Positions 19,207 through 56,730 of a stretch of DNA of 64,000 nt are shown here, piece after piece. The notes under the pieces were generated by a model. That model had not been told where the DNA came from and did not search any database. It worked only from the letters and a program-made list of their open reading frames with translations. Every line of letters starts with the position of its first letter. The stretch's first letter is position 1. This DNA comes from an uncultured Eggerthellaceae bacterium. GTDB taxonomy: Bacteria; Actinomycetota; Coriobacteriia; Coriobacteriales; Eggerthellaceae. The position numbers were made by a program, and so were the translations under genes. The stretch is from positions 62,001 through 126,000 of the forward strand of contig CANSWY010000003.1 of NCBI GenBank assembly GCA_947650915.1, in the 5' to 3' direction.

Positions 19207-19604
19207 TGTGCAAAAGGAACGTCCCAAATCGCACCTGCAGGATGTGCAAAAGGGACGTCCCAAATTGCACATAGGATAAGAGCATGAGGAACGGAAGATA
19301 TCTGCTATGTGCAATTTGGAACGTCCCTTTCGCACATCAGGTGACATTCTCGCACGGGGGGGGCTCGTCTCTGTTCGCAATAAGACCACGAAAGAGCGGA
19401 GAAAACGTGGCCTCTCGGCTGATGTGCAGAAGGGACGTCCTGAATCGCACCTGCAAGGTTGCCCGATGTGCAAAAGGGACGTCCCAAATTGCACATAGGA
19501 CCGTTCTTTCAGTGCTCATGCTCTTATCCTATGTGCGATTTGGAACGTCCCTTTCGCACATCAGACCATCCCCATGCGATTTGGAACATCACCTTCTGCG
19601 CATC
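19206..19604. repeat. Palindromic repeat family R1, cluster B (seven copies)
   Basis: Direct copies at 19206-19234, 19242-19276, 19422-19450 and 19466-19500; inverted copies at 19305-19338 and 19527-19562; and a degraded inverted copy at about 19572-19604. Direct-inverted pairs face each other over 28-30 bp spacers (partly alike: CTCATGCTCTTATCC), giving two potential long hairpins. The cluster fills the gap between convergent cydDC and the MGMT-like gene, and both genes' TGA stops are formed by the repeat's TGATG(T/C)GC edge. No other gene is credible in this stretch. Confidence 0.85.
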
Positions 19605-24716: not shown

Positions 24717-24800
24717 TCCGCTCTCAACAATGCGCGGAAGCCGCAAAAGCGCCCGCCTGAGCGTGCAAAAACCACTCACCCGGAATGTGCAGAAGGGGCT

Positions 24801-24954
24801 GCCTGAGCGTACAGAAAGGGCTGTCCGGAATGTGCAGAAGGGACGTCCCAAATTGCACATAGGAATAGTCTGACTTCTATGCAGTCACTTCCTCTATGTG
24901 CGATTTGGAACGTCCCTTCTGCACATTCCGGACAGCCCTTTCTGTACGCTCAGG
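24801..24954. repeat. R1 repeat cluster C, long inverted repeat
   Basis: Two R1 cores face each other (24829-24863 and about 24893-24927), and similarity extends outward through CGGACAGCCC-type and GCCTGAGCGTAC sequence to give near-perfect arms of about 60 bp (24801-24863 versus 24893-24954) around a 29-bp loop. Further relatives of the half-unit GTGCAGAAGGGGCTG lie upstream at about 24760-24800. The cluster sits between the convergent zinc-ribbon gene and marR-like gene. Confidence 0.85.
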
Positions 24955-39407: not shown

Positions 39408-40544
39408 TCAGCATTCGGGCACGTCCCACGCATCTTCGAGGATGCTCACAGCCTCCAGAGGCTCCCTCATGAAGTCCAGATCCTGATGCAGATACACCGC
39501 TTCGGTTATCTTGGTGTTGGAGTGTCTCATGAGGGCGGATATGACCTCGATGGGCACCCTCCTCCGCAGCAGCACGTTCGCCCATCCATGGCGCAGATCG
39601 TGCGAGCGCGCATCCGGAAGCCCGAGCCTTTCCCGGTTGGCCCTCCACCATGCCTGGAGACGCGCCTTGGATATCCGCCTGCCCAGTTCGTCAGCCACTA
39701 TGGGCGTGTCATCAGCGGGGGAGAGGCCATGGCCTTGCAGCTGGCCATCCTGCCAGTCGAAGTACGCTGCCAGGAAGCGCGTGAGGTCGCGGCAGATGGG
39801 TATGGTGCCCCAGCTCTTCTTGGTCTTGGTTCCCCTCACCAGCATAGCCTCTTCAAGCAGGCTCACATCGCCCCTGTTGGCCTTCACGGCCTCTCCGACG
39901 CGAAGGCCCGCCATCATCTCCAGCGCGATGCCGGCATGGAACGGATCATCTGGCGTGAGTGCCTTCGCCAACGTCGCGACCTGTTGCTCAGTGGGGGCAA
40001 CGCGTTCCTCAGTGTCGCTCTTCGGTTTCTTCGCCTGCAGGAAAGGGTTGTCTGCGCAGTAGCCTTCCTTCTTCCCGTAGTCGAATGCGAGCTTCATCTT
40101 CGCGAAATATCCAGACACCGTGGAATGTTTCGTTCCGCCGTCTATGATCCTGGCGGTGGCCGCATCTATCATCTGGTGCGTCACATCCGATGCGAGAGCC
40201 TTGCCTATCAGCGGGCAGTACGCCTTCTTGGCCGAGCGGTCCGATTCGAGCGTCTTTTCTCTGACTTCGCCCGATGCCACCCGGTGGGCATAGTATTCGT
40301 TGAACAGCTCCTCGACGGTGATGCCCTTCTTCTTGGGCTGGATGCGCATGTCGGCGACTTCGGCGTTCAGCTTCTCAAGCTCTTCTTCGGCGTCGCTGTA
40401 CGTCCCGCAGACGATGCGATTGCGCTCACTGTAGTTGCCAGTGGCAGGGTTCCTGCCCGTGCGCTTCCTCACCCGCCATTTCCGACATCGTTTCCTCGGC
40501 TTGTCCTCCAATGGCAGGATGGTCCCTTTGGTAGGTGCTGGCAT
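39408..40544 (-). CDS. int: Phage tyrosine integrase
   Basis: Integrates and, with an excisionase, excises the prophage. The 378-residue protein has an N-terminal Lys/Arg-rich arm-binding region (about 1-55), a SAM-like core-binding domain (about 80-180), and the catalytic domain with Arg in MAGLRVGEAVKA, SHDLRHGWANVLL, and ALMRHSNTKITEAVYLH carrying the His and nucleophilic Tyr. The ATG at 40544 follows AAGGAGGATT. It reads outward toward ftsY, the usual position next to attL. Confidence 0.94.
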   Translation of the reverse strand: MPAPTKGTILPLEDKPRKRCRKWRVRKRTGRNPATGNYSERNRIVCGTYSDAEEELEKLNAEVADMRIQPKKKGITVEELFNEYYAHRVASGEVREKTLESDRSAKKAYCPLIGKALASDVTHQMIDAATARIIDGGTKHSTVSGYFAKMKLAFDYGKKEGYCADNPFLQAKKPKSDTEERVAPTEQQVATLAKALTPDDPFHAGIALEMMAGLRVGEAVKANRGDVSLLEEAMLVRGTKTKKSWGTIPICRDLTRFLAAYFDWQDGQLQGHGLSPADDTPIVADELGRRISKARLQAWWRANRERLGLPDARSHDLRHGWANVLLRRRVPIEVISALMRHSNTKITEAVYLHQDLDFMREPLEAVSILEDAWDVPEC

Positions 40545-40661
40545 GAGATAGAATCCTCCTTGCAGACAGACGCCCCGCAAAGGCGTGTCCGTCTTGTGTC
40601 CTGAAGCCCTGCGCCTGTCGCCAAACTAGAGCGGGGCTTCTCCTTTTTTCCTGTAACGGGA

Positions 40662-41772: not shown

Positions 41773-42654
41773 TCAGTCTTCGTCATCTTCATTCATCAAT
41801 GCGAGAATATCCGAATAGATCTTCTCATCAGTTGCATCAGGGATCTCTAGTTCATCTAACAGAGCAGGATGAGCCTCGAAGAGCTCGCATGTTCCGTATC
41901 TGGGGATGTAGATATACCCCATCTCTGCATCGTGGATCTCTTTGACCAACTCGCTGTAATGGAGCTCATAGCTGGGGGCTTCTGGAAAATATGAGCCTTC
42001 ATCTGAATCATCCTCTAGGCATGCCAGGTAGGTTATGAGCCTATGTATGCGACTAGCCTTGCGCCAAGCGATGAGCAGCTCATCCGTTCGTCGTGCGTCT
42101 CCTTGCTCGTCGTTGCGGGCGGCTCCCGCTTTGATTCCATCGAGCACATCTTGATGCGCATCCAGATACTCGCGGGCGGCCCTTCTGGCTGCCCACATGG
42201 CGCGTTCCCGTTCGCTTATGCTTGGCAATATCGTGACAAGTCCTCTGCTCCTGAGGATCTGCAGGCATTGATGCGGGTTCTCATACAAGAAGCAGCGCGG
42301 AGGCTCTGCGAAACAGTCGGGGCTCTCATATGCCATGAGCAAGAGCGCCATGCACTCATCAGAGAGCCCATCGAAGCTGCGCTTGTCGATCCGCGCACCC
42401 AAGCGAGAGGCTGCCTCTTCGATCGTCATGCCGAGGAGCAGGGATGTTCGCCATTTCTTGAGTTGCCACCCTGCGAAGATGCCGAGCGCCACCAAAGCAA
42501 CGGGCCAGAGAAAAGCGACGGTAGGGAAGAACGCGCCAAGGACGGATTCTCCGTACTGGGAGAACAGCCAGCTTCCCAGAAAACCGCACGCGATGCTTGC
42601 TATCGCCCAGTTCCTTGAACTATTGCCGGTCTTCGCTTCGCGCTCTTCGCTCAC
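41773..42654 (-). CDS. Lysogeny-arm membrane protein, unknown
   Basis: A 293-residue protein with two N-terminal transmembrane helices (about 15-35 and 42-65) followed by a long soluble, acidic cytoplasmic domain with no recognised fold. It overlaps the repressor gene by four bases, so it is cotranscribed with the repressor and made in the lysogen. Membrane proteins in this position often give superinfection exclusion or phage defence; this is a context-based inference only. Confidence 0.65.
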   Translation of the reverse strand: MSEEREAKTGNSSRNWAIASIACGFLGSWLFSQYGESVLGAFFPTVAFLWPVALVALGIFAGWQLKKWRTSLLLGMTIEEAASRLGARIDKRSFDGLSDECMALLLMAYESPDCFAEPPRCFLYENPHQCLQILRSRGLVTILPSISERERAMWAARRAAREYLDAHQDVLDGIKAGAARNDEQGDARRTDELLIAWRKASRIHRLITYLACLEDDSDEGSYFPEAPSYELHYSELVKEIHDAEMGYIYIPRYGTCELFEAHPALLDELEIPDATDEKIYSDILALMNEDDED

Positions 42655-43025
42655 GCTACGTCCTCCTTTGATCCAGTTTCCACAGTCCTGGGCTGATTTT
42701 TTGCTATGCGGTTCGCCGCATCGCGCTCCATGGACTGAGCCACCGATACGAGCGTTTCCTTGCCGCGTTCGTTCATGGATTCGTAGCAGATGTTGATGAT
42801 CTCCTGTCCCGCATCCGTGTATTCCCGAGTGACCTTGCGCCCCACCAGTTCATCGAGCGTGCAGTCAAGGGCGTCGCATACCAAGCAGGCTTGCTCCAGG
42901 TTCATAGTTGCCTCCTGACGCTCCCAAGACTGATAGCGCCTTTCGGGGACGCCGATTTTGTTCGCAAATGCGCCCTGAGTCTTGTATCCAGCGAGCTTCC
43001 GGAGTCGTTTTAGTTGGAGATTCAT
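42651..43025 (-). CDS. XRE-family phage repressor
   Basis: A 124-residue DNA-binding protein. Residues about 5-60 are a lambda/434-type helix-turn-helix (LRKLAGYKTQGAFANKIGVPERRYQSWE), and the rest is a short helical dimerisation region without a LexA-like cleavage domain. It is the divergent gene facing the early genes, so it is the probable lysogeny repressor. The ATG at 43025 is used; an upstream in-frame ATG at 43079 would run through the promoter. Confidence 0.8.
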   Translation of the reverse strand: MNLQLKRLRKLAGYKTQGAFANKIGVPERRYQSWERQEATMNLEQACLVCDALDCTLDELVGRKVTREYTDAGQEIINICYESMNERGKETLVSVAQSMERDAANRIAKNQPRTVETGSKEDVA

Positions 43026-43052
43026 TGCGTATCCCTTCGCTTTAACGCGGTA

Positions 43053-43158
43053 ATAGTACAACCAAAACGTATAAAGCACAACTTAATTGCTGATTTCTGC
43101 TTGACACAACAATTTACTCGCGCTAATGTTCAAAAAAGAACAATTAAATTGCGGATTT
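43053..43158. promoter_or_regulatory. Lysogeny switch: divergent promoters and operator-like repeats
   Basis: Leftward promoter: TTGTGC (43081-43076), 17-bp spacer, TACTAT (43058-43053) on the minus strand. Rightward promoter: TTGACA (43101-43106), 17-bp spacer, TAATGT (43124-43129). Two direct 19-bp repeats, matching at 16 positions (43078-43096 and 43140-43158, sharing TTGCnGATTT), flank the rightward promoter, one abutting the leftward -35. They are good candidates for binding sites of the repressor or the Cro-like protein. Confidence 0.7.
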
Positions 43159-43331: not shown

Positions 43332-43574
43332 ATGTCTGAGAAGGAGCTTCGCTATGACGGGGAGCGCATGGCGCGTCGCGTCAAGAGCCTGCGGGCGGAT
43401 CTGGGTTGGGATCAGGAGAAGCTCGCCGAAGAGGCGGGCGTTTCCAAGGATACCGTGTGCTCTGTGGAGTGCGGCCGTCGCGGCGTGACGCTGAACACCA
43501 TCGTGGCCCTGGCCGATGCGCTCGGGTGCGAAAGCGTGGACGAGCTGGTCTTCCGCTCCGCCCCGGCAGCGTAG
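43332..43574 (+). CDS. Cro-like XRE helix-turn-helix protein
   Basis: An 80-residue DNA-binding protein with a classic XRE helix-turn-helix (LGWDQEKLAEEAGVSKDTVCSVECGRRGVTLNTIVALADAL, about 24-64). Its ATG directly follows the preceding gene, with a GAAAGGAG site. As the first rightward DNA-binding gene, opposite the repressor, it is the best Cro candidate. Confidence 0.78.
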   Translation: MSEKELRYDGERMARRVKSLRADLGWDQEKLAEEAGVSKDTVCSVECGRRGVTLNTIVALADALGCESVDELVFRSAPAA

Positions 43575-44987: not shown

Positions 44988-45270
44988 GGAGTCCATCACC
45001 TATGAGGAAGCCATCGAGCACATCGCGCTCCAAGAGATCGAAGAGCTCAAGATCATCTGCTCGTTCAATGGACTCGATGCTGCCATCGGAGAGGCTAACG
45101 CGAAAGACCTCCAGCAGAACGTTAGGAATGCTTTCGAAGCTGAAGCCAAGCAGCGCATCAAGGCTGTTTCCGGCCTGTTCTGCGAGCAAGTGGAAGAGGT
45201 CACGAGCGATGTCAGACGTAGGCGCAGGGAGATCACGGGCGAGATCGCAGAGAAGGGGAGGCCGGCATGA
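44980..45270 (+). CDS. Hypothetical early phage protein
   Basis: A 96-residue, mostly helical, charged protein (ITYEEAIEHIALQEIEELK at the start, a basic RRRRREI run near the end). It has no recognised domain. It overlaps the next gene by four bases. The start codon follows only a weak GGGGGAT site. Confidence 0.55.
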   Translation: MSRESITYEEAIEHIALQEIEELKIICSFNGLDAAIGEANAKDLQQNVRNAFEAEAKQRIKAVSGLFCEQVEEVTSDVRRRRREITGEIAEKGRPA

Positions 45271-45476
45271 AGCGCAATGTCAAACAAAGACCTTCGCCTG
45301 GGGCGATTGCATGGGGCTTTCTCGTGTTTGCGGGTTTTTGGCTGATGGTCGGAACGATTGCAAGCGCTGCTGGGTTTTGTTGTCTTCGAGTGGCTCTCGT
45401 GTCGGCCATAGGGTGCCTGTGTTTCTCTGCCGTGTTTGGGTTGCTGCAGCGGATCTTGAACAGCATCGACGAGTAG
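45267..45476 (+). CDS. Small phage membrane protein
   Basis: A 69-residue protein with a basic N-terminus (KRNVKQRPS) and two transmembrane helices (about 14-34 and 40-60). Coupled to the preceding gene by a 4-base overlap. Unknown function; it immediately precedes the structured noncoding stretch. Confidence 0.58.
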   Translation: MKRNVKQRPSPGAIAWGFLVFAGFWLMVGTIASAAGFCCLRVALVSAIGCLCFSAVFGLLQRILNSIDE

Positions 45477-45479
45477 CAG

Positions 45480-45825
45480 CTTCCTCTGCCGGCGCACTGG
45501 CCTGCGCGCAAGTCCCTTCAGGCCAGGGCAGCGACGTGCGCCGGTTGAGGAGCCTGCTGGCTCCGCACCTCCTCTCTTTGCTGGGCAGGCCGTCAACTAA
45601 CTCGGACGGCCTGCCGGAAGAGGGATGCACTTTGACAACCAAGAGGTGGCTTCGTTCCTTGGAAAAACGAGCATTGAATCCAGGAGGTGCCGCATGGCCA
45701 TAGCCTGCGGCACCCGCCATCAGATCCCTGCGCAGGCGCACGCGCCAGCGTTTCTCTTTGGTCTGAGCCTGTTGCACGCGTGTCGAGGGGTTGTTCTGCT
45801 CCTGCGTTGCGTGCGCCTGCATGGG
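45480..45825. ncRNA. Candidate structured RNA, unknown class
   Basis: The 394 bases between 45,477 and 45,870 hold no credible gene, but many long perfect helices: 45489-45497 with 45536-45544 (9 bp, extended by TCCTC/GAGGA after a 2-nt internal loop) enclosing 45498-45504 with 45519-45525 (7 bp); 45549-45554 with 45559-45564 (6 bp, exclusive with the TCCTC pairing); 45584-45594 with 45605-45615 (11 bp); 45686-45694 with 45706-45714 (9 bp plus 3 inside); and 45732-45743 with 45809-45820 (12 bp enclosing 65 nt). Strand, promoter and exact ends are undetermined; the downstream gene reads plus. It could be a trans-acting phage RNA or a long structured leader. Confidence 0.55.
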
Positions 45826-45870
45826 GGCCTGATGGCAGAAGGCGAAGGAAGAAGGAAGGAGGTGGTGCGC

Positions 45871-46152
45871 ATGGCGGGCGAAGACTTGAAATGGCTCTCG
45901 GTGCCTGAATACGCCGAGATGATGGGCAAAGACCCACAGCACATCCGCGACTTGTGCCTGCAAGGCGAGATAGAGGCGCGGAAGATCGGACGCTGCTGGG
46001 CGATCCCGTACATGGAGCCTGAGAGCGTGCGGGCAGAGCAGCGTGTGCAAGAGGCCGTGAATGGCATCGTTGGAGCATGCGTCGCATTCATAGACGCTTC
46101 GATCGTGCAGCTGACAGAGGTGCGCGAGACATTGAAGGAGGTCGCTCGATGA
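45871..46152 (+). CDS. Excisionase-like helix-turn-helix protein
   Basis: A 93-residue protein whose first 50 residues form a MerR/HTH_17-type DNA-binding domain (WLSVPEYAEMMGKDPQHIRDLCLQGEIEARKIGRCWAIP), the form used by phage excisionases, followed by a helix with an EAVNGIVGACVAFIDA stretch. A strong AAGGAGGTG precedes the ATG at 45871; an open frame further up is structured noncoding sequence. The excisionase role is inferred from fold and context. Confidence 0.7.
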   Translation: MAGEDLKWLSVPEYAEMMGKDPQHIRDLCLQGEIEARKIGRCWAIPYMEPESVRAEQRVQEAVNGIVGACVAFIDASIVQLTEVRETLKEVAR

Positions 46153-46496
46153 GCGCACAGACAAAAGAAACGCGCCTCGATGCTTGGCGGCTGAGGCGCG
46201 AAACGGTTTCGGGCGAAACCGGGAAACATTGTAGCACGGCCGCTGATGCGATCGTGACCATCTACGCGCTGAACCGCGAGGTGGACAGGTGGGACGCGCG
46301 CAACCAGCGCGCTGAGCGCGAACGCGGCTGCGGCATCCCGAACATTGTGCGCGCGCACGGAGGCACATGGCTGGCCGACATGGCCACGCTGCTGGGCGTG
46401 CGGGTGCGGTCGGTCAAGGTCGCGGGCGCTCCGCGGCCGGCGGTCAAGTACCGCGGAATCTGGTTCGTGAACTTCGAGAAAGGGGCCAGAGCATGA
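46149..46496 (+). CDS. Hypothetical phage protein
   Basis: A 115-residue protein with no recognised domain. The C-terminal half (GGTWLADMATLLGVRVRSVKVAG) resembles a helix-turn-helix, so DNA binding is possible. It overlaps both neighbours by four bases, placing it inside the excisionase-like/ParB-like operon. Confidence 0.55.
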   Translation: MSAQTKETRLDAWRLRRETVSGETGKHCSTAADAIVTIYALNREVDRWDARNQRAERERGCGIPNIVRAHGGTWLADMATLLGVRVRSVKVAGAPRPAVKYRGIWFVNFEKGARA

Positions 46497-47794
46497 TCTT
46501 GAAGACCATCGATCTGGCCGATATGCGGCCAGATCCGAACAACCCACGCGAAGACTTCGGAGATCTGGAAGCGATGATCCGCGGGTTCGAGCTCAACCCG
46601 ACGTATCCAGGAGAGCCGTTGAACCCTCCCATCACCGTGAAGGATGGGAACGTCTACCGCATCGTGGATGGGGAGCGCCGTTACCGCGCCATGCAGGAAG
46701 CGAGACGCAAGATGTGCCACGCCATCGTCTGCGATGATTTCGACGAGGCGGACGTGATCGTGGCCATGATGGCCACGGATGACAAGAAGCAGCTGTCTGA
46801 GGTGGAACGTTCTCGCGGCGTCCAGCGGATGCTGAAACTGGACGTGGACGAGGACACCATCGAAGAGATCACTGCCATCCCCATGAAGACGGTGCGCCAG
46901 GTGCGCGCTGGCATGAGGAAGGCGGGCGAGAAGGCCGAGCAGCTGACCACGGATTGGCTGGCCGCCGTGGGTGAAGCGGAAGAGCGCGGAGACATGGAAG
47001 CGGCCGAGGCCATCATGAACGTCAAAGAAGATCCGTGGGGTGGGAAGAATTGGGAGAACGTCAAGCGACGGTTCGATGAGCTCCGTGCATATGAAGCAGG
47101 CTACGAGATGCTGCGCCAGGCGTGCGCCGACCTGGAGGTGCCCTTCCAGGCGAGCAAGCCGAAGAAAGCCGTCTTCGAAGACACGTGCTACCGTCTTGGC
47201 AAAGGTGGAGAAGAGATTCGCGCGTGGGTGCAGGAACAGGCGGACAGGGGCTTTTCCATCTGGTGCCCGGCACCTACAGAACGCCACACATATGTGAACC
47301 CCGAATCCTTCTCTGCGCCAGCCATGCTCACAGAGGAGGAGGCGAAGACCAAAAGCAACCAGAACCAGGCGAAAGCGGCCATGACGAACGCCAAGAAGCG
47401 GCGCGCGCAGTGGGTGGGCGAGCGCATCGCCAACGCCGATGCGCTGAAGCACACGCTCCAGTTCTTCGTGGAGGGACGCCGGTCCATGAACGCGCGCGAT
47501 TTCGCTGCGAAAGCAGGGGTCGAGTGCGAGGACATCCCCTGCCCGCCATCTCCGTTCCTTTTGGCATGTGATTGGCCATGGACGGACGACATGACCCAGG
47601 CGATGCTCTTGGCCATCCTGTTCGACAAAGAGGATCCGTGCGGGGGCATAGGTCCCCGCGCCAAGCACGATGCGGCGGATGGATTCGTCAGATTCATGGC
47701 GGCGCTCCAGGGCGATGGCTACATCTGGAACGAACACGAGACAGAACTCTATGCCGCGTGCTGCGACATCCTGGATGACAAGGAAGACGCGTGA
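46493..47794 (+). CDS. ParB-like nuclease-domain protein
   Basis: A 433-residue protein. The N-terminal 90 residues form a ParB/Srx-type domain (DLADMRPDPNNPREDFGDLEA, then the DGERRYRAM motif), followed by a helix-turn-helix region (about 110-150, IEEITAIPMKTVRQVRAGM). The rest is an unrecognised helical region. Phage ParB-like proteins act in partition, DNA binding or as nucleases; which applies is unknown. Its position ahead of the recombination genes argues for DNA metabolism. Confidence 0.8.
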   Translation: MILKTIDLADMRPDPNNPREDFGDLEAMIRGFELNPTYPGEPLNPPITVKDGNVYRIVDGERRYRAMQEARRKMCHAIVCDDFDEADVIVAMMATDDKKQLSEVERSRGVQRMLKLDVDEDTIEEITAIPMKTVRQVRAGMRKAGEKAEQLTTDWLAAVGEAEERGDMEAAEAIMNVKEDPWGGKNWENVKRRFDELRAYEAGYEMLRQACADLEVPFQASKPKKAVFEDTCYRLGKGGEEIRAWVQEQADRGFSIWCPAPTERHTYVNPESFSAPAMLTEEEAKTKSNQNQAKAAMTNAKKRRAQWVGERIANADALKHTLQFFVEGRRSMNARDFAAKAGVECEDIPCPPSPFLLACDWPWTDDMTQAMLLAILFDKEDPCGGIGPRAKHDAADGFVRFMAALQGDGYIWNEHETELYAACCDILDDKEDA

Positions 47795-50839: not shown

Positions 50840-51358
50840 ATGGCAGAACAGGATATGGGCCAGGCGCTCGATTGGGACATGACGGAGGTCGATGATTCGG
50901 ATGGGTATGTCCTCATCGAGCCTGGCGTGTACGGCTTCATCGTGACCGACCTCAAGAAAGAGCGCTTCGAGGGGTCCGAGAAGATGGCACCATGCCCGAA
51001 AGCGGTGGTCACGCTCTCCGTGGTCACTGACGCGGGAATGGTCCCTGTCACTGAGAACCTGATGTTGAACACGAAGATGATGTTCAAGATCAGCCAGTTC
51101 TTCAAGGCGCTGGGCGCGAAGCCTGACCCGGAGACCGGCAAGGTGCCCGTGGATTGGTCGAACGTCCTCAGCAAGGAAGGCGTCCTGGAGATCGAGCGCC
51201 GCACCTACACCAAGAGGGACGGCAGCCAGGGAGAAGCGAACAGCGTGAAACGCTTCCTGGCGCCTGAAGATGCGCCGGCGCAGATGCCCATCCCCGTGCC
51301 CGACCAACCCGCAGCTGCGAAGACCAGCGAAGTCTCGCAGTACGGGTACGCGATGTGA
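50840..51358 (+). CDS. DUF669-type phage protein
   Basis: A 172-residue protein that matches the DUF669 pattern, found next to Sak4-like ATPases and helicases in many phages (DYVLIEPGVYGFIVTDLKKERFEG-like core, then KMMFKISQFFKALG). DUF669 proteins are thought to bind single-stranded DNA or help the recombinase; experimental support is limited. AGGAGAGGAC precedes the ATG. Confidence 0.75.
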   Translation: MAEQDMGQALDWDMTEVDDSDGYVLIEPGVYGFIVTDLKKERFEGSEKMAPCPKAVVTLSVVTDAGMVPVTENLMLNTKMMFKISQFFKALGAKPDPETGKVPVDWSNVLSKEGVLEIERRTYTKRDGSQGEANSVKRFLAPEDAPAQMPIPVPDQPAAAKTSEVSQYGYAM

Positions 51359-51360
51359 CC

Positions 51361-54045
51361 ATGGAGCTGAGACCATACCAGGAGAGCGCGCGGACGGCCA
51401 TAGAAGCGGAATGGGAGCAAGGGCGGCGCAAGACGCTGCTCGTGCTCCCGACCGGCACTGGCAAGACCGTCGTGTTCTCCATGGTGGCCAAGGACGTGGT
51501 GGACAAGGGCGGCCGGGTGCTCATCCTGGCGCACAGAGGCGAGCTGCTGCAGCAGGCGGCGGACAAGCTGCGGGCGGTGACGGGGCTCGGCTGCAGCGTC
51601 GAGAAAGCGGAGCAGACCTGCATGGGAGAGTGGTTCCGCGTGGTCGTCGGGTCGGTCCAGACGCTCATGCGGGAGAAGCGGCTCTCGCGCTTCCCACGGG
51701 ATTACTTCGATGCGATCATCGTGGATGAGGCGCACCATGCGCTCTCCACCAGCTATCTGGCCGTGCTGGACCATTTCAACCAGGCGGACGTGCTGGGCGT
51801 CACCGCGACGCCCGACCGCGCCGACCGGAAGAACCTGGGCGAGTACTTCGATTCCACAGCGTATGAGTACACGCTCCCGCGCGCCATCAAGGATGGCTTC
51901 CTCTGTCCCATCAAGGCGCAGACGATCCCGCTCAAGATAGACATCACCCAGGTGGGCATGTCGAGCGGAGACTTCGCGTTGAACGGGCTGGGGACTGCGC
52001 TCGACCCCTACCTGGACCAGATAGCGGATGAGATGGTGGCCGCCGGCTGCAAGGAGCGCAGGACCGTGGTGTTCCTGCCGCTCGTGGCCACGTCGAAGAA
52101 GTTCTGCCAGATCCTGAACGCGAAAGGGTTGCGCGCGGTCGAAGTGAACGGAGAGAGCGCGGACCGTGCTGAGATGCTGGCAGCGTTCGACGCCGGAGAG
52201 TACGACGTCTTGTGCAACAGCATGCTGCTCTGTCTTGATAAAGAGACAGAGGTTTTGACCTCGCGAGGCTTCGTGGGTATCGAGGAAATATCTGAAGACG
52301 ACGAGGTCGCAAATTGGAACTTCGACGGGAGCGTGTTCTTCGAAAAGCCGAAAGAGATCGTCAGGAGGCCGCTGGGACTTGATGAGCACATGGTTTCCAT
52401 CGATTCGAAGACCATCAACCTTCGCGTGACCAACACTCATCGGATGATCGTCAGCTGCGGGGAGGATGGGAAGAAGTGGAAGAAGGTGCCTGCTGAAACA
52501 CTACGGAACGGCCATCATCTCCCATCGTCTGGCCATGCTGCTCCCATTGCATTCGAGATGCCCGAGCCTCCATATGAGCGCCTGACGCATAAGAGGATCG
52601 AATCGGGCGAGCTTTCATACAAGAGGCCAGAGGATCTGACGATCGATGAATGCAGGTTCATCGGGTTCTTCCTTGCTGAAGGCACTAGAACCGAATTGAG
52701 GTCTGGAGGCATCGAATACAAGGTATCACAGGTGACAGACAAGTATCCTGCCATAGTCGCATGGTTTGACGATGTGGTGAAAGCCGTCGGATTCAGTTGC
52801 GTCCGAAAAGAGCGGTATCAGCGAAACGTTGGCAGGAACGTGACCTATTGGTCTTTCCCGAGAGGGACCGGGCATTCCAGCCAGAAGAGAGATGGTCTCT
52901 TCTGCATCGAACCGTATCTTGATAAAGATGACCCTCGCTTCCTCTGGTCGCTCGATGAAGAGCACTTCGATGCATTTGTCGAAGGCTTCTGGTTCGGAGA
53001 TGGATGGCACGGTTCCGGAGAAGATGGGATGCCCGATTCGGTGTATCTGTCTGGATGCTATGGTGCTCTTTTCGATGCGATGTGCGCGGTAGGGAGCGTC
53101 AGGGGTTGGCGCTGCAGCATTTTCGAACGTCCGCAGAAGAATCCACTGCACTCGATGCAATATGGACTACGAATGATAAAGGGTCGCGATCTCATGATCT
53201 CCTGCAAGACGAAGATCGCCCATGAACCATATCAAGAAGAAGAGGTTTGGTGCGTCCGCACTTCCACGAAGAACATCATCACTAGGCGAAAAGGGCGCGT
53301 GTGCATCATGGGTAACACCGAAGGCTGGGACTGCCCGGCCGTGGATTGCATCGTGGTGCTCAGGGCCACGAAGAGCCGCCCTCTTTACTGCCAGATGGTA
53401 GGACGCGGCACGCGCCTCTCTCCGGAGACCGGCAAGGACCATCTGCTGCTCTTGGACTTCCTCTGGCAGACGAACGTGCATGAGCTTTGCCGGCCGGCGC
53501 ACCTGGTGAGCGGAAGCGATGACGTGGCGCGCTGCATGACGCAAGCGCTTGAAGCTTCCGGATGCCCGGAGGACCTTGAGACGGTGGAGCACCAAGCGCA
53601 GCAGGACGTGGTGCGCGAGCGCGAGGAGGCGCTGGCCGAGAAGCTGGCGGCATCGCGCAAGCGCAAGCGCGCGCTCGTTGACCCGCTGCAGTTCGAGATG
53701 TCCATCATGGCCGAGGACCTCTCAGGATATGTCCCTGCTTTCGCGTGGGAGATGGCACCGGCATCCGACAAGCAGAAGGCGGCGCTTGAAAAGGCCGGCA
53801 TCTTCCCGGATGAAATCTCATGCGCCGGCAAAGCATCCATGATCTTGGACCGTCTGGCGAAGCGCAATGCTGAAGGGCTTTCGACGCCCAAGCAGATCCG
53901 CCTGCTGGAGAACAAGGGCTTCAAGGACGTCGGCACGTGGAGCCGCGAGGATGCTTCGAAGATGATCAGCCGCATCTCCGCGAACAGCTGGCGCACGCCG
54001 CGCTCGGTCGACCCGGCGACATACAGGCCCGGTGATGCCGCATGA
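51361..54045 (+). CDS. SF2 DEAD/DEAH-type helicase interrupted by an intein
   Basis: An 894-residue precursor. The helicase (extein) has RPYQ, Walker A LPTGTGKT (about 30-37), motif II VDEAHH (about 121-126), motif III TATPDR, motif V split as NSMLL | TEGWD, and motif VI QMVGRGTRL, with a helical tail. An intein of 362 residues (about 291-652) splits motif V exactly, so the helicase works only after splicing, giving about 532 residues. It lies among replication genes and probably unwinds DNA at the phage origin or fork. Start at ATG 51361 or the GTG two codons upstream. Confidence 0.92.
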   Translation: MELRPYQESARTAIEAEWEQGRRKTLLVLPTGTGKTVVFSMVAKDVVDKGGRVLILAHRGELLQQAADKLRAVTGLGCSVEKAEQTCMGEWFRVVVGSVQTLMREKRLSRFPRDYFDAIIVDEAHHALSTSYLAVLDHFNQADVLGVTATPDRADRKNLGEYFDSTAYEYTLPRAIKDGFLCPIKAQTIPLKIDITQVGMSSGDFALNGLGTALDPYLDQIADEMVAAGCKERRTVVFLPLVATSKKFCQILNAKGLRAVEVNGESADRAEMLAAFDAGEYDVLCNSMLLCLDKETEVLTSRGFVGIEEISEDDEVANWNFDGSVFFEKPKEIVRRPLGLDEHMVSIDSKTINLRVTNTHRMIVSCGEDGKKWKKVPAETLRNGHHLPSSGHAAPIAFEMPEPPYERLTHKRIESGELSYKRPEDLTIDECRFIGFFLAEGTRTELRSGGIEYKVSQVTDKYPAIVAWFDDVVKAVGFSCVRKERYQRNVGRNVTYWSFPRGTGHSSQKRDGLFCIEPYLDKDDPRFLWSLDEEHFDAFVEGFWFGDGWHGSGEDGMPDSVYLSGCYGALFDAMCAVGSVRGWRCSIFERPQKNPLHSMQYGLRMIKGRDLMISCKTKIAHEPYQEEEVWCVRTSTKNIITRRKGRVCIMGNTEGWDCPAVDCIVVLRATKSRPLYCQMVGRGTRLSPETGKDHLLLLDFLWQTNVHELCRPAHLVSGSDDVARCMTQALEASGCPEDLETVEHQAQQDVVREREEALAEKLAASRKRKRALVDPLQFEMSIMAEDLSGYVPAFAWEMAPASDKQKAALEKAGIFPDEISCAGKASMILDRLAKRNAEGLSTPKQIRLLENKGFKDVGTWSREDASKMISRISANSWRTPRSVDPATYRPGDAA
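52231..53316 (+). mobile_element. Intein with LAGLIDADG homing endonuclease domain
   Basis: Begins with Cys (CLDKETEVLTSRGFVGI, block A), has block B with the TNTH motif (about residue 363 of the precursor), endonuclease blocks FIGFFLAEG and FVEGFWFGDGW (LAGLIDADG blocks C and E), block F (VWCVRTSTKNIITRRKG) and ends ICIMG-like VCIMGN before a Thr +1 residue. The penultimate residue is Gly instead of the usual His, a known variant in phage inteins. DNA here is visibly richer in AAA, GAT and CTT codons than the surrounding helicase, suggesting later acquisition. Confidence 0.9.
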
Positions 54046-56523: not shown

Positions 56524-56730
56524 CGTCTGGGACGGACAGACAAAAGCGGGTTTTGTCCTTTTGTCCCTCCGTTTTGGACAGGGACAAAAGCGGGTTTTGT
56601 CCTTTGTCCCTGGGACGGACAAAAGCGAGAATCTCCGCTTTTGTCCCTCGGACGGACAAAAGCCCGTTTTTCCGCTTTTGTCCTTGGGACAGACAAACCT
56701 AGTACTACGTACATAAAGGATTTTGTCCCT
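56524..56730. other. Putative phage replication origin (iteron-like repeats)
   Basis: Noncoding stretch right after the replication protein gene. GACAAAAGC occurs at 56539, 56583, 56618 and 56655; its complement GCTTTTGTC at 56637 and 56674; TTTTGTCC also at 56551, 56559, 56595 and 56721. The facing pairs make two hairpins (56618-56645 and 56655-56682). Repeats next to a Rep-type gene with an HTH are the usual form of a theta origin. A GTACTACGTAC palindrome-like stretch follows at 56702-56712. Confidence 0.65.

Follow-up and report, generated by a model that had tools for sequence, protein, structure and literature searches.

The best-known cases of boxA antitermination are rRNA operons, lambdoid phages and CRISPR arrays, for the most part in Proteobacteria. 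In these three settings the recruitment of NusB and S10 by boxA and its role against Rho are established (PMC5725501, PMC10250234, PMC12691694). The window (the whole 64 kb stretch of DNA that was analysed) carries a noncoding region which we read, giving this reading roughly even chances, as a structured untranslated leader of about 390 nt belonging to a prophage early operon and containing a boxA antitermination site. Host-type boxA sites in prophage early operons of another bacterial group, in part with a boxA leader-trailer helix like that of rRNA, would suggest that phages widely copy the rRNA leader and thereby shield their untranslated early RNA. In the window itself, what was an anonymous structured gap becomes a specific and testable leader.

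Compared with an rRNA operon leader, on which the NusB/S10/SuhB complex assembles, the window has a boxA core at most one base away from the rRNA boxA of the bacterial family, strong hairpins before boxA, and structured untranslated RNA with a long helix after it. It differs in that the flanks of boxA diverge, trailer pairing and rRNA are lacking, and the role of the site is one that we infer. As in lambda nutR, boxA is on the sense strand of an early operon, ahead of delayed-early or replication genes, and a small hairpin overlaps its end (hairpin C, 45639-45662, plus strand, 5 bp, CCAAG/CTTGG, read off the sequence); in distinction to nutR, the site is about 2.5 kb into the operon and inside a large structured leader. 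No N-like protein was identified among the prophage early genes tested. The likeness to the HK022 put RNA and to leaders of the Tn916 type is that of an untranslated structured leader of a mobile-element operon, proposed to sustain transcription; put, however, works solely through its RNA structure and needs neither boxA nor Nus proteins. The first-pass annotation had pointed to the phage RNAs ROOL and GOLLD, with which the region shares phage context and structured noncoding RNA, tRNA genes being found in the same slot of some related prophages. This link is not supported, as there are no Rfam matches above the gathering cut-off in the 64 kb, and the window leader is shorter, differently located, in another context and without common sequence. 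A regulatory leader is more probable than a new giant RNA. An Rfam search at loose threshold gave chance hits to eukaryotic families only.

The early operon and its boxA-like site

The prophage is marked by an integrase gene (39408-40580, minus strand), a repressor gene (42651-43079, minus strand) and an HTH regulator gene at 43332, followed by small genes and then by the leader. Immediately 5' of the leader is the ORF of a putative small membrane protein with weak coding signal (45267-45476, plus strand). That the region stands ahead of an excisionase-like/ParB operon, as had been proposed, is borne out by the gene map: the noncoding stretch lies directly 5' of the genes for an excisionase/MerR-like HTH_17 protein of 93 aa (45871-46152, plus strand; Pfam PF12728, E 4e-7; Shine-Dalgarno sequence AAGGAGGT at 45856-45863, plus strand) and, in the same operon, for a 115-aa protein with no family assigned (46149-46496, plus strand) and a ParB-like protein of 433 aa (46493-47794, plus strand; Pfam PF02195, PHROG 18056). 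The gene order 3' of the leader is HTH_17, 115-aa protein, ParB, ATPase, Sak4-like, helicase, primase, terminase and portal, the replication genes reaching 56.5 kb and the terminase being at 60 kb. The leader forms part of a rightward early operon, on the same strand as the flanking genes. A TTGACA sequence was considered as a sigma-70 -35 box and discarded, since an acceptable -10 box is missing and the scanner detects no promoter. In the phage DNA helicase ORF (51355-54045) an intein-like insertion, from about residue 290 on, apparently interrupts the reading frame and has a weak PHROG match to a thymidylate synthase profile. Immediately 3' of the primase gene, an intergenic phage array in which GGACAAAAGCGGGTTTTGTCC-type repeats occur in direct and inverted orientation (56524-56720) looks like a replication origin.

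The boxA-like site is GCACTTTGACAACC (45627-45640, plus strand), which matches the rRNA-leader boxA of the relative L097 at 13/14 bases and is 14/14 identical to a site in L079, an integrative element from the same family of bacteria. This site, in the middle of the region, does not appear in the first-pass annotation and is the best clue to a mechanism. The identity with L079 extends over 15 bases (GCACTTTGACAACCA), and the L079 site is within the early operon of the mobile element. The core at 45631-45640 reads TTTGACAACC, whereas the majority of 23 rRNA leader loci have CTTGANAACC. The assembly lacks the rRNA leader of the host itself. In the window the site is intergenic, in the untranslated leader and on the operon strand. 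It was found through comparison rather than by prior prediction; a match of at least 13/14 in 394 nt has p near 6e-5 under equal base frequencies, for a comparison made after the motif was seen. The pattern YTTGANAACC occurs at this site and nowhere else in the 64 kb, where 0.53 occurrences are expected by chance. With a full 22-nt weight matrix of the rRNA leaders the site reaches 3.7, owing to its differing flanks, while chance alone should give a top score of 8.5 in 64 kb; the extended context GGATACTG 3' of the core is also not found at this site. In predicted folds the core is mostly unpaired, its exposure exceeding that of about 90% of the leader; at simulated transcript ends it is 0.65-0.88 unpaired. 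Stem and duplex-energy searches detected no trailer pairing with the window boxA within 1.5 kb, and its best boxA-anchored helix of 11 bp is at shuffle level. From its sequence the site is probably a boxA, though not proven to be one, because the boxA-anchored helix is absent and the flanks diverge.

Elements of the leader and the start of the HTH_17 gene

The five helices listed in the first-pass annotation are all present, at the positions given or at most one base off. Its span of 45480-45825 is too short; the real extent is about 45475-45846, because two stems had been overlooked (45565-45573/45682-45690, 9 bp; 45716-45723/45829-45836, 8 bp), the second of which closes the 12-bp domain beyond the former end point. 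All elements are on the plus strand. Domain A (45475-45558) is a two-tier hairpin with outer arms 45475-45497/45536-45558 that are 83% complementary, a perfect 9-bp stem (45489-45497/45536-45544, pairing probability 0.98) and an inner stem of 8 bp (45497-45504/45519-45526). The helices cannot all form together: the inner 45497/45526 stem has a pairing probability of 0.12, and the remaining four stems listed earlier have at least 0.98. The 5-bp two-state switch suggested at 45547-45551 is possible and, at the same time, unremarkable.

Downstream of domain A, hairpin B (45584-45615) has an 11-bp perfect stem (45584-45594/45605-45615, pairing probability 0.99) with a 10-nt loop, and no U-tract 3' of the stem. 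Past boxA and hairpin C there is an internal Shine-Dalgarno sequence AGGAGGTG with ATG 45694 (45682-45696), partly within hairpin D (45686-45714; arms 45686-45694/45706-45714, 9-bp perfect stem, pairing probability 0.99). Domain E, a long hairpin at 45716-45836, starts about 76 nt 3' of boxA and comprises the 8-bp base already mentioned and a perfect 12-bp helix (45732-45743/45809-45820), with pairing probabilities of at least 0.99. Extended with one or two mismatches, this helix reaches at least 17 bp, a length that no other helix with a span of 60-800 nt attains in window positions 40001-64000. A weak intrinsic-terminator-like hairpin, CGCAGGCG-CACG-CGCCAGCG followed by TTTCTCTTT (45731-45759, -9.5 kcal/mol), and the 12-bp helix are mutually exclusive. 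A terminator/antiterminator switch at this place was rejected, since such hairpins are equally frequent in shuffled DNA and not significant, and so was the 12-bp helix as a classical antiterminator, the long helix forming too late.

That the region holds no credible gene, as first annotated, agrees with codon scores near zero in every frame over 45480-45870 and with the absence of PHROG or Pfam family matches for any leader frame tested. A protein search of related genomes returned the own locus plus one chance match, a lone hit of E=6e-5 that turned out to be antisense to an unrelated gene. From 45625 or 45694 the frame is open into the HTH_17 gene. ATG 45694 is in frame with that gene, was picked as start by the crude gene caller and would yield a 152-aa form; since the frame is open and a good Shine-Dalgarno sequence precedes this ATG, a longer form of the HTH_17 protein may be conceivable from the sequence. 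No relatives of the corresponding N-terminal extension were found.

In the mechanism that we propose, the leader strand would be transcribed as part of the early operon, and host NusB and S10 (NusE) would bind boxA on the nascent leader and join RNA polymerase. The polymerase modified in this way would cross the untranslated structured stretch, chiefly by resisting Rho, and would then reach the HTH_17, ParB and replication genes. Downstream helices would fold the leader, and the global fold would mask the ribosome-binding site of HTH_17. Because the predicted fold hides its Shine-Dalgarno sequence, translation of HTH_17 may also be controlled by the leader.

Control of translation has to be taken seriously, as a rival of the boxA reading or as a partner to it. 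As an explanation by itself it takes the region as a structured 5' leader acting on HTH_17 translation, or as an element of riboswitch or protein-operator type, and the TTGACAACC match as chance, which we consider rather unlikely. The predicted fold speaks for it: in the minimum-energy structure 45565-45573 pairs with the HTH_17 Shine-Dalgarno sequence, GCACCTCC (45565 on) being the strand involved, closes a domain of about 305 nt and leaves the sequence with an unpaired probability of 0.15-0.24. Hairpin D locks away the second strong Shine-Dalgarno sequence (45682) and its ATG 45694, and the mismatching boxA flanks point the same way. Complementarity to Shine-Dalgarno sequences is, however, common in GC-rich DNA of purine- and pyrimidine-rich composition. 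No relatives were found that would show the pairing to be conserved, and why related prophages have the same boxA signal in equivalent places is left unexplained. The anti-Shine-Dalgarno-like stretch GCACCTCCT (45565-45573) is also a perfect 9-bp complement of AGGAGGTGC in the internal Shine-Dalgarno sequence (45682-45690), the two having a pairing probability of 0.0. The stretch at 45565-45573 resembles the 3' end of 16S rRNA.

The boxA signal in related elements

No DNA relatives of the leader came out of 100 related genomes, the phage records or its own genome, where the only matches were the locus itself and short chance ones; searches anchored on proteins yielded ParB, ATPase and HTH relatives that are all distant and all lack this leader. 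In distant prophage relatives found by ParB or ATPase anchors, a GC-rich structured gap is often present in the corresponding part of the early operon, and comparison of these gaps yielded the common TTGACAACC. The same core is found on the sense strand between early-operon genes in L039 (twice), L042 and L072; in L072, which has the ATPase and Sak4-like genes, it is directly 3' of the repressor operators, where the early transcript begins. Several related elements have, like the window, an HTH_17-like gene 3' of boxA. Weaker boxA copies with long helices are seen in L041 and L044. A scan of IMG/VR with an 18-nt phage form of boxA gave 59 matches, against none for the reversed pattern, and on contigs of at least 45% GC all matches but one are outside called genes, the intergenic count being restricted to these contigs as the gene caller is crude and fails on AT-rich ones. 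On one IMG/VR phage contig a pemK RNA (RF02913, L150:5787-5866, minus strand) was observed about 140 nt downstream of boxA.

In the rRNA leaders of the bacterial family (23 loci) boxA is, with few exceptions, [ga][ac]acCTTGANAACCggatactg, located about 137-204 nt 5' of 16S, and in most of the 16S operons tested it pairs with the 16S trailer. With the pattern used, no boxA was found in the 16S-23S spacer. In 7/35 non-redundant phage sites, as opposed to 0/175 shuffles, boxA supplies the 5' arm of a long-range helix of 17-27 bp, with trailers about 100-740 nt downstream, and a boxA-anchored helix is also present in the family loci L039, L041, L042, L044 and L079. Its length is 24 bp in L042 (1200-1560, minus strand), 23 bp in L125 (6758-7124, minus strand), 24 bp in L039 (reverse-complement 3398) and in L041 (reverse-complement 4150), 27 bp in L044 (2643), 23 bp in L151 and 25 bp in L157, and an 18-bp helix starts in boxA in L079. 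The further loci with such helices are L120, L121, L145 and L173. The helix arms vary between phages, as is expected for a helix under selection. L042 and L125 have in common a 350-nt RNA closed by the boxA helix, in which six pairs have changed on both sides and none is broken.

These data suggest a wider proposal, possible though doubtful at present, according to which the prophages of this group (Coriobacteria-like, to judge by a relative in Olsenella) generally use rRNA-type leaders in their early operons, that is, a host-type boxA followed by a long-range leader-trailer helix that encloses either a variable RNA or a small gene, in imitation of pre-16S rRNA. The window leader would then be a divergent member in which domain E is separated from boxA; that domain E and boxA represent the same design with its parts moved apart is speculation.

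The occupants of the equivalent slot bear on another explanation, a stand-alone structured phage noncoding RNA that is released from the operon transcript by processing, as a tRNA or pre-rRNA is. A tRNA-Arg(CCU) is in or beside this slot in three related prophages (L039:1980-2054, minus strand; L042:1124-1198, minus strand; L046:3928-4003, plus strand), the compensated RNA of L042 and L125 occupies it as well, and domain E is unique in its helix length in 24 kb of phage DNA. We still regard such an RNA as unlikely, given that no sequence relative, Rfam family or own promoter was found for the leader and no tRNA in the 64 kb window.

Statistics of the helices

The region 45475-45846 contains seven perfect stems of 8-12 bp. 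Counting perfect stems of at least 8 bp with a span of at most 130 nt, these seven compare with a mean of 0.97 in dinucleotide shuffles, and 0/1000 shuffles reach seven. Over the 346 nt first annotated, folding energy is better than that of shuffled sequence (MFE z -3.3 on the plus and -4.3 on the minus strand, with 0/100 shuffles as good on each), and the 372-nt region folds 28 kcal/mol better than its own shuffles. None of the 150-nt windows across the region is extreme singly (z -0.4 to -2.5), and the signal thus arises from several helices together. The structure signal of the leader is real and beyond chance. It is strand-neutral, and the sense strand was taken from the operon direction.

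Helices of comparable strength on both strands would also suit an element acting as DNA instead of as RNA structure, with palindromes that serve as an operator or in replication or partition (parS-like), and so would the ParB gene shortly downstream, palindromes being typical of protein sites. The stems, however, differ in sequence and length and do not make up a repeated site, loops of up to 65 nt are atypical of protein-binding palindromes, and the array at 56524-56720 is far more origin-like, which makes this explanation very improbable for the leader.

Least probable of all, to the point of deserving hardly any weight, is GC-rich intergenic filler or decayed coding sequence with functionless helices, for which it may be said that GC-rich DNA folds well, that three other places of the window fold as well or better and that no leader homologue was found to show conservation, and against which stand the stem count with dinucleotide content preserved and the lack of homologues in any frame to suggest decay.

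The three places are 3/103 windows sampled over the 64 kb that equal or beat the 372-nt region in folding gain, near 721, 19321 and 56521, and are obvious repeat arrays. A dispersed palindromic repeat of the host, GATGTGCAAAAGGGACGTCCCAAATTGCACATAGGA / TCCTATGTGCGATTTGGAACGTCCCTTTTGCACATC, is found at 690-840, 19210-19570 and 24790-24950, with folding z down to -17, and is possibly a MITE/REP-like element.
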